From Blattabacterium cuenoti (GTDB lineage Bacteria > Bacteroidota > Bacteroidia > Flavobacteriales > Blattabacteriaceae): a DNA stretch of 64,000 nucleotides. How positions within the stretch are numbered: the stretch's first letter is position 1; each line of letters starts with the position of its first letter. Under the pieces are notes generated by a model. The model made no database searches. It saw only the letters and a list, made by a program, of their open reading frames with translations, and was not told where the DNA came from. This document shows positions 23,304-25,682 of this stretch, piece after piece. The stretch spans positions 110,610-174,609 of the forward strand of contig NZ_CP059219.1 of the NCBI RefSeq assembly GCF_014252395.1, written 5' to 3'. The position numbers and the translations under genes are program-made.

Positions 23304-24235
23304 AGATTTTTTAAAGATCCTTTGAAAATATTTAAAGAAGAATAATTTTTTTTTTGTAAAAAAATAATAAATTCTTTTTTTAATCTATCAAATACTGAAA
23401 TTCCTTCTTTAATAAATTGTGTCCCTACTTGAACAGCAGAAGCTCCACATAATATATGTTCAAAAATATCTTTTCCAGAAGAAATACCTCCACATCCTAT
23501 TATAGAAATATCTTTTCTAAGATAAGTATAAAATGTACGTACATTAGCTAATGCAAATGGTTTTATAATTGAACCACCTATTCCACCAAAACCTTTTTTA
23601 GGATATATTACTACTGATTCTTTATTTGCATCAATTATAATACCATTTGGCAAACTGTTAATACAAGTAACAAAAGAAATAGGAAACTTATTCAATATTA
23701 ATGCTATATTTTTTATGTGTATATCCTTAAAATAAGGAGGTAATTTAACTCCTAAAGGTTTTTTATTAAATTTAAATATTTTTTTTAAAAATCCATAAAT
23801 TTTATAAAAATCATAACCTAATACTTTTTTTTTTGAAATATTTGGACAAGATAAATTTAATTCTAAAGCTGTAATATTTGAAAAAAGATTAGCTTTTCTA
23901 ATAAGTAAATAATTTTCTTTTATAGAAAGTCCAGATATAGAAAGAAAAATAGGTTTTTTAGTTTTTTTTTTTTCGAAAAAGTTTAAATAAAAATCAATTC
24001 CAAGATTAGGTAATCCCATAGAATTTATACTTCCTTTATCCCATTCAAAATATCTTGGTTTTATATTTCCTTCTCTTAAATAACTTGTACAACTTTTCGT
24101 CACAATTGCTCCAGAAGAACTTTCTAATAAATTGGATAATTCTATAGATGTAGAACAAAGGGCTCCTGAAGCATTCATAATACATGATGAAAGTTTTATT
24201 CCATTTATAATAGTAGAAATATCTATTTTTTTCAT
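23300..24235 (-). CDS. pyrD: Dihydroorotate dehydrogenase, class 1A-like (fumarate-type)
   Basis: This enzyme oxidises dihydroorotate to orotate. From the ATG at 24235 it has 311 residues, the length I recall for the Lactococcus lactis class 1A enzyme. The catalytic base is Cys130 in ELNLSCPN; class 2 membrane enzymes use Ser. Other blocks fit class 1A: MNASG, GSINSMGLPNLGIDFYL, GVKLPPYF, SVVIYPKKGFGGIGG, IIGCGGISSG and HILCGASAVQVGT. No membrane helix and no PyrK partner are seen. Known class 1A enzymes are soluble and pass electrons to fumarate. An upstream in-frame ATG at 24265 would add ten unneeded residues. It is divergent from the UMP synthase gene. Confidence 0.9.
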   Translation of the reverse strand: MKKIDISTIINGIKLSSCIMNASGALCSTSIELSNLLESSSGAIVTKSCTSYLREGNIKPRYFEWDKGSINSMGLPNLGIDFYLNFFEKKKTKKPIFLSISGLSIKENYLLIRKANLFSNITALELNLSCPNISKKKVLGYDFYKIYGFLKKIFKFNKKPLGVKLPPYFKDIHIKNIALILNKFPISFVTCINSLPNGIIIDANKESVVIYPKKGFGGIGGSIIKPFALANVRTFYTYLRKDISIIGCGGISSGKDIFEHILCGASAVQVGTQFIKEGISVFDRLKKEFIIFLQKKNYSSLNIFKGSLKNL

Positions 24236-24299
24236 AATCTTAATTAGAATTGTAATAATATCCAAGTATAAAATTTTTAACTTTACTAAAATAGTTTTT

Positions 24300-25682
24300 A
24301 TGCAAGAAAAAGAACAGTTTTTTTTAAAAATTTATAATTTAGGAATTATTAAATTTGGAAATTTTACTTTAAAAAGTGGAATGAATTCTCCTTTATATAT
24401 AGATTTTCGTCCAATAGCTTCTAGACCAGATTTATTAATGAAATTATCAGATTTACTTCTTGAAGAAGTACCATATCCTAATTTTGAATTAATTTGTGGA
24501 GTTCCATACGCCGCTTTACCTATAGCTACTGCTTTATCTTTAAGATCTAAAATACCTTTAATTATTAAAAGAAAAGAAAATAAAGGATATGGAACAAAAC
24601 GAATGATTGAAGGAATTTATAAAAAGGGTCAATATTGTCTTCTTATAGAAGATGTTATTACAAGTGGAGATAGTTTACTAAAAACTATAATAGATATAGA
24701 AAAAGAAGGATTATTTGTAAAATATATTATGTCTATTCTTGATAGAGAACAAGGAGGAATAGAAAATATAAAAAAAAAAGGATACGATATAAAAACTTTA
24801 TTTCGTATAGGAGAAGTTTTAAAAATGTTAGAAAAAAAACATTCTTTAAAAAAAGAAGAAATACATATGATTCAATTTTTTTTTAAAAATAGAAATATAA
24901 AAAATTACTATAAACGTATTTCTTATGAGAAAAAAAAAGAAAAAATACATCATCCTATAGGAAAAAAACTTATTGATATAACATTAAAAAAAAAAACAAA
25001 TTTAATCGTTTCTGCAGATTTAGTGCATTCTAGAAAAATATTAAAATTAGTAAAATTAATTGGAGATATAATTTGTGGATTAAAACTTCATATAGATATT
25101 ATTAATGATTTTTCATTATCATTTATAAAATCTCTAAAAAATATTTCTATAGAAAAAAATTTTTTATTATTTGAAGATAGAAAACTATGCGATGTTGGTC
25201 CTACCAATTATCTTCAACTTCATTATGGTATACATAAAATTTCTTCTTGGGCAGATATTATCACTGTACATGTAATAGCTGGTAGTAAAAGTATACAAAA
25301 TTTAAATATACCATCTAATATGGGATTAATTACTGTATCTGAAATGTCTTCTTATGGAAAATTATCCGATGATAATTATATAAGAAAAGCTTTAAATATT
25401 TCTATTAAAAATCCAAAAGTAATCGGAACTGTAGCACAAAGAAAAGTAGACGATAGATTATTATTATTTACACCTGGTATTCATTTTTCTAATTCTGAAA
25501 ATAATAATTTTGGTAATAAATATATAGATCCTAATCAAGCATTTGAAAAAAATGGAAGTGATTTTATTATTGTAGGAAAAGCCATTTATCAATCTAATAA
25601 TCCAAAAATAATGGCAGAAAAATATAGAAAAGCAGGATGGAAAGCTTATGTCAATGGACTTTCTATCAAAAATATAGAATAA
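24300..25682 (+). CDS. Bifunctional UMP synthase: orotate phosphoribosyltransferase–OMP decarboxylase fusion
   Basis: A 460-residue single frame with two enzymes that turn orotate into UMP. Residues 1 to ~200 are orotate phosphoribosyltransferase: FGNFTLKSGMNSPLYIDFR, GVPYAALP, the KENKGYGTKR loop (92–101) and the PRPP loop IEDVITSGDS (116–125). Residues ~215–460 are OMP decarboxylase: Asp240 in SADL, Lys262 in KLHIDIINDF, and the catalytic D293-x-K295-x-x-D298 set in FEDRKLCDVG. The OPRT-ODC order and motif wording (DREQGG, SEMSSYGKL, GSDFIIVGKAI, YRKAGWKAY) resemble animal UMP synthase as I remember it. An ATG at 24132 in frame is antisense to pyrD and is rejected as start. Bacterial pyrE and pyrF are usually separate. 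Confidence 0.93.
   Translation: MQEKEQFFLKIYNLGIIKFGNFTLKSGMNSPLYIDFRPIASRPDLLMKLSDLLLEEVPYPNFELICGVPYAALPIATALSLRSKIPLIIKRKENKGYGTKRMIEGIYKKGQYCLLIEDVITSGDSLLKTIIDIEKEGLFVKYIMSILDREQGGIENIKKKGYDIKTLFRIGEVLKMLEKKHSLKKEEIHMIQFFFKNRNIKNYYKRISYEKKKEKIHHPIGKKLIDITLKKKTNLIVSADLVHSRKILKLVKLIGDIICGLKLHIDIINDFSLSFIKSLKNISIEKNFLLFEDRKLCDVGPTNYLQLHYGIHKISSWADIITVHVIAGSKSIQNLNIPSNMGLITVSEMSSYGKLSDDNYIRKALNISIKNPKVIGTVAQRKVDDRLLLFTPGIHFSNSENNNFGNKYIDPNQAFEKNGSDFIIVGKAIYQSNNPKIMAEKYRKAGWKAYVNGLSIKNIE

Follow-up and report, generated by a model that had tools for sequence, protein, structure and literature searches.

An old eukaryote-type fusion of orotate phosphoribosyltransferase and OMP decarboxylase in Blattabacterium, with an altered phosphodianion gripper in the predicted decarboxylase half

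The window, that is the whole stretch of 64,000 nucleotides of Blattabacterium cuenoti DNA analysed here, carries a gene predicted to encode a bifunctional UMP synthase (UMPS), orotate phosphoribosyltransferase (OPRT) followed by OMP decarboxylase (ODC). We consider it probable that this UMPS descends vertically from an ancestor shared by the symbiont's own family (f1) and family f6, that it goes back to a fusion formed in bacteria, that it works in a truncated pathway, and that the phosphate gripper of its ODC was altered early, at the root of the genus. According to this explanation, the N-terminal domain would transfer phosphoribose from PRPP onto orotate and the C-terminal domain would decarboxylate the resulting OMP to UMP, with the orotate being delivered by a class 1A dihydroorotate dehydrogenase (PyrD) encoded head-to-head with the fusion. 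The fusion itself most likely arose within bacteria when two neighbouring genes, a eukaryote-type pyrE-pyrF pair, were joined in their existing order. Most descriptions treat the OPRT-OMPDC fusion as eukaryotic and the bacterial proteins as separate (e.g., PMC9978035). Our literature search returned no paper that treats this fusion for Bacteroidota or Blattabacterium, with the older literature on pyrimidine fusions thinly covered. The function is ordinary and the fusion is old; new here are the 6 of 36 altered ODC columns in Blattabacterium, including two gripper residues.

The fused frame runs from an ATG at 24300 to a stop at 25680-25682 and contains no internal stops. OPRT (N-terminal) and ODC (C-terminal) lie on one uninterrupted chain, and the catalytic residues of both halves are present (Table 1). 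The frame matched OMPdecase (7e-37) and Pribosyltran (8e-5) in Pfam, and exceeded the NCBIfam cut-offs for both TIGR00336 pyrE (123 bits, cut-off 106.8) and TIGR01740 pyrF (136 bits, cut-off 92.3). A longer version of 516 aa, starting from TTG at 24132 and running into the divergent neighbour gene, was discarded as spurious. The AlphaFold model, built on an input alignment of 28 fused relatives, had a mean pLDDT of 88.5, and its best solved matches were human UMPS ODC (TMt 0.93) and human UMPS OPRT (TMt 0.90). A sequence-only reading of the locus had described a single frame of 460 residues in OPRT-ODC order, with intact active sites in both halves and a list of motifs resembling animal UMPS. 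The domain matches and the other genomes of the genus bear out the frame and its order, the catalytic residues, the PRPP motif and the catalytic loop are all kept, and every motif on that list was found in the window protein.

Table 1. Positions in the window of the fused gene, its functional sites and its divergent neighbour.
Feature	Position	Strand	Remark
Class 1A dihydroorotate dehydrogenase (PyrD), 310 aa	23300..24232	-	divergent, head-to-head with UMPS
Intergenic gap, 67 bp	24233..24299	.	between divergent PyrD and UMPS
Fused OPRT-ODC (predicted UMP synthase)	24300..25682	+	460 aa + stop
OPRT half, residues 1-200	24300..24899	+	closest solved chain 2wns, human UMPS OPRT, E 2e-49
OPRT catalytic loop RKENKGYGTK	24570..24599	+	intact
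OPRT PRPP-binding motif LLIEDVITSGDS	24639..24674	+	intact, conserved across family
ODC half, about residues 216-455	24945..25664	+	closest solved chains are human UMPS ODC
ODC catalytic K262, D293, K295, D298 (yeast K59, D91, K93, D96)	25083..25193	+	49/49 genus genomes
Gripper loop N406 (yeast Q215), Y408 (yeast Y217)	25515..25523	+	Q 0/49, Y 49/49 genus genomes
Phosphate site K427 (yeast R235), A428 (yeast G236)	25578..25583	+	K in 42/49 genus genomes

The likeness to the animal enzyme, also claimed from the sequence alone, held for each half. In phmmer searches of the PDB, human UMPS ODC was the top match of the ODC half (1e-51), and human UMPS OPRT that of the OPRT half (2e-49), followed by Leishmania OPRT (4e-35) and by bacterial PyrE at 1e-16 or weaker. 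Identity to the human protein was 39% in ODC and 42% in OPRT. With yeast ODC as a query, E. coli ODC scored 24 bits and the window ODC about 149-162 bits. Because of this ranking and these bit scores, both halves are assigned on sequence to the eukaryote-type branch, and differ in type from the PyrE and PyrF (TIGR02127) that other Flavobacteriales encode separately. No match to TIGR02127 (pyrF_sub2) was found in the window genome or in any of the 48 other members of the genus. The window protein thus has its domain order, domain subtypes, catalytic residues and fold in common with human UMPS, while it differs by being bacterial, by an identity of only 39-42%, and by having N and K instead of Q and R in the phosphodianion gripper. 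Another fusion with both activities on one chain, the ODC-OPRT protein of cyanobacteria and kinetoplastids (PRK05500), has the reversed domain order, and the window protein scored 132.8 against its cut-off of 656.

Each of the other 48 Blattabacterium genomes carried the full-length fusion, with 69-87% identity, which means that the fused frame is not a chance product. Since all 49 have an uninterrupted frame, a feature specific to this symbiont or an assembly artefact was ruled out. In Flavobacteriales the fusion occurred in 127 of 396 genomes, belonging to 15 of 108 genera: Blattabacterium, a member of the same family with a larger genome of 1.3 Mb (G314; fusion 55% identical), 11 genera of family f6, and single genomes of families f4 and f11. 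Family f6, probably Weeksellaceae, contributed about 75 genomes with sizes from 1.7 to 5.4 Mb. The class- and phylum-level samples gave matches, besides the window genome, in f6 genomes only. The fusion was also found in Saprospira plasmids, in Aureispira and other Saprospiraceae, and in Chitinophagales. Two IMG/VR scans and a phage collection yielded no fused relative of viral origin. The genome searches confirmed the earlier claims that most Bacteroidota keep pyrE and pyrF separate and that flavobacterial PyrF is of another ODC subtype: of 80 relatives, 23 carried TIGR02127 PyrF, and all 23 lacked the fusion. No second PyrE match was found in the fusion-bearing genomes, and no other PyrF-type gene in the window genome. 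As TIGR02127 PyrF never stands alongside the fusion and a second PyrE is missing, the fusion replaced the ordinary flavobacterial genes cleanly, rather than being added to them.

Two of the plasmid copies deserve description. Plasmid NZ_CP116809.1 of Saprospira sp. (L071; 53 kb) carries guaB, guaA, a gene related to AIR synthase, class 1A PyrD and the fused UMPS, which are nucleotide genes of a kind normally chromosomal; the record names the fusion simply pyrF. In a plasmid of S. grandis Lewin (L072, 1891-2181), the fused gene and a KilA-N gene are followed by an extra C-terminal ODC fragment, a partial tandem duplication.

In the RpoB tree, families f1 and f6 were joined with support of 99/97, and the fusion requires one change of state. 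The concatenated UMPS tree recovered a fused clade of Flavobacteriales (100/100) and a wider one of Bacteroidota, including Saprospirales (99/98), so that the UMPS of f6, Saprospira and Aureispira are homologous by descent with the window gene. As the two trees agree, the gene appears to have been inherited vertically from the common ancestor of f1 and f6, and would then be older than the symbiosis. The fusion is characteristic of a clade: it is not recent, and the symbiont shares it with other bacteria. Two possibilities raised by the sequence-only reading found no support: the agreement of the trees speaks against horizontal transfer into the symbiont, and the presence of the fusion in its family, in the sister family f6 and in Saprospirales against a fusion private to its lineage. 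Recent transfer from the insect host was ruled out, given that f6 and Saprospirales have the gene too and that the UMPS and RpoB trees match.

The origin of the fusion was approached by scanning 84,980 species with a human-first alignment, from which f6 sequences, which would have filled the list, were deliberately omitted; 63 loci were returned. Fused copies among them came from Bacteroidota, Cloacimonadota and Ignavibacteriales. Loci from Patescibacteria, Chlamydiae and Dependentiae carried eukaryote-type pyrE and pyrF as separate adjacent frames in the same order as in the fusion. The pairs of Patescibacteria and Chlamydiae share domain families and gene order with the window gene, but they are two unfused frames. 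In the ODC, OPRT and concatenated trees, where eukaryotes were thinly sampled (human, yeast ODC and Leishmania OPRT), human and yeast were placed among unfused rows, and the fused rows formed two groups. The first, F1, comprised Bacteroidota. The second, F2, comprised Cloacimonadota, Ignavibacteriales and two MAGs, and was nested among unfused rows with 100/98 in the ODC tree and 95/95 in the concatenated tree. The split in the ODC tree was supported by 100/99, and in the OPRT tree human grouped with unfused rows of Chlamydiae type (99/84). The loci of the second fused clade, separate from the main one, are L087, L088, L092 and L097, the two MAGs being labelled Bacteroidota.

We favour, from these trees, a fusion formed inside bacteria independently of the eukaryotic one. 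A pre-ordered gene pair may even have fused more than once, since a bacterial fused clade, adjacent unfused pairs of the same type and a second fused clade are all found. The sequence-only reading had looked to trees of both domains with eukaryotes for a decision, and these answered in part: the best trees put eukaryotes among unfused bacterial genes, but AU tests allow a shared fusion. A eukaryotic UMPS acquired in a single transfer by an ancient bacterial ancestor, and passed down since, would explain the matching domain order and the eukaryote-type domains, and a clade of F1 with human was not rejected (p = 0.17 concatenated, 0.435 for ODC alone), nor was one with yeast added (p = 0.082 and 0.131, respectively). 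We regard such a transfer as unlikely. Not only do human and yeast group with unfused bacterial genes in the best trees, but unfused Dependentiae genes stand between the fused Bacteroidota and eukaryotes in the concatenated tree, and most unfused genes are more similar to human (about 50-58% identity) than the fused ones (about 39-48%). We give similarly little credence to one ancient fused gene behind F1, F2 and eukaryotes, from which the unfused bacterial pairs would be later splits. The order of the halves is identical everywhere, and neither a clade of F1 and F2 (p = 0.363) nor one of F1, F2 and human (p = 0.201) was rejected; however, this history demands repeated splitting into neighbouring genes across many phyla, and F2 is nested within unfused rows.

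Loci with other arrangements were also found. In a Dependentiae MAG (L130, 2798-4501), dihydroorotate dehydrogenase and eukaryote-type OPRT form one frame, and ODC is the next gene. Eight loci from Patescibacteria and other MAGs (L114, L116, L117, L120, L121, L128, L129, L132) have a eukaryote-type ODC adjoining an OPRT only 23-33% identical to the human and window queries, from which it follows that the two halves are exchangeable separately. Five loci of Gammaproteobacteria (L110, L119, L122, L125, L131), including Thiotrichales 19S9-11 and 19S3-11, have a eukaryote-type ODC with no eukaryote-type OPRT detected nearby.

Returning to the bacterial fusion, its ODC half has changed within Blattabacterium. 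Among the 36 ODC columns that are invariant in every other group, six are altered in the genus: F94 and I97, beside the catalytic tetrad, and D211, Q215, R235 and G236, which belong to the phosphate gripper region. Other groups have changed one (f6) or two (Saprospirales, F2, and the unfused genes with eukaryotes) of about 32 such columns, and in OPRT only 1 of 23 invariant columns is changed in Blattabacterium. These counts partly rule out AT-rich decay as a general cause of active-site drift. Two of the three phosphodianion-gripper residues are affected. At the position of yeast Q215, Q is found in none of the 49 Blattabacterium genomes and N in 42, while all 84 sequences outside the genus have Q; at yeast R235, K is found in 42 and R in seven of the 49, against R in 82 of 84 outside. 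The third residue, Y217, is retained together with S154 and the catalytic K/D/K/D tetrad in all 49 genomes. Q215 and R235 are kept in the UMPS of f6, Saprospira and Aureispira, and the change is placed at the base of the genus because the nearest relative, G314, has Q and R.

In yeast ODC, Q215A costs 2.2 and R235A 5.6 kcal/mol (PMC12874384). Substitutions by N and K are milder than those by A, and our literature search found no data on N or K at yeast Q215 and R235. The symbiont ODC is predicted to bind OMP more weakly or to close its loop differently, and the change may represent either compensated remodelling or a weakening that is tolerated. We tentatively suggest that the gripper of this natural OMP decarboxylase was remodelled in concert (D211, Q215, R235 and G236, plus F94 and I97) and has stayed so throughout the genus, with catalysis kept; it is a possible reading, to which we would give somewhat less than an even chance. 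The concentration of changes in ODC, four of them in the phosphate gripper region, and the cost of the yeast alanine variants would also suit an ODC half that is decaying or no longer decarboxylates OMP, the protein then acting mainly as OPRT or on another substrate. We think this improbable, as the tetrad, S154 and Y217 are universal in the genus, all frames are open, the genome has no other PyrF-type gene, and both replacements, R by K and Q by N, are mild.

The divergent neighbour is a class 1A PyrD (PRK02506, 444 bits, cut-off 301), in which a test for the catalytic-cysteine loop NLSCPN found SCPN. It matches Lactococcus PyrDA (class 1A) over its full length (E 6e-94), whereas the head-to-head pairing with a fused UMPS is a feature of the window. 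The gap between the two genes would have to contain the promoters of both. The same divergent pair, with a gap of 57-107 bp, was found in the listed members of the genus and in G051 and G058, and a class 1A PyrD diverges from UMPS also in G314, G193, Aureispira and one Chitinophagales locus; in Saprospira the two genes are in tandem. Most f6 copies of UMPS are not adjacent to class 1A PyrD, which was absent from the three f6 genomes searched. No dihydroorotase (PyrC) and no PyrB was found in the window genome, whose sole gene resembling aspartate carbamoyltransferase is the N-acetylornithine carbamoyltransferase beside carB (CarB and this gene at G000:C1:332227-336423; L200, L201). With PyrB and PyrC missing, the de novo pathway is reduced to its last three steps and starts at dihydroorotate; the host therefore probably supplies dihydroorotate or orotate. 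Dihydroorotate was assumed to be host-supplied in a 2012 model of two Blattabacterium strains (PMC3287516), and a revised model from 2013 assigned dihydroorotase to BLBBGE_317 of strain Bge (PMC3819652), so host supply may not apply to the whole genus.

A whole bacterial clade thus shows an architecture usually called eukaryotic. The absence of PyrB and PyrC makes provision of dihydroorotate or orotate by the host directly testable. Through the altered gripper, the use of phosphodianion binding energy by a very proficient enzyme can be tested in a natural case; if our tentative reading of this gripper is true, Blattabacterium would provide a naturally evolved parallel to the engineered yeast ODC variants, within a fused enzyme of a truncated pathway.
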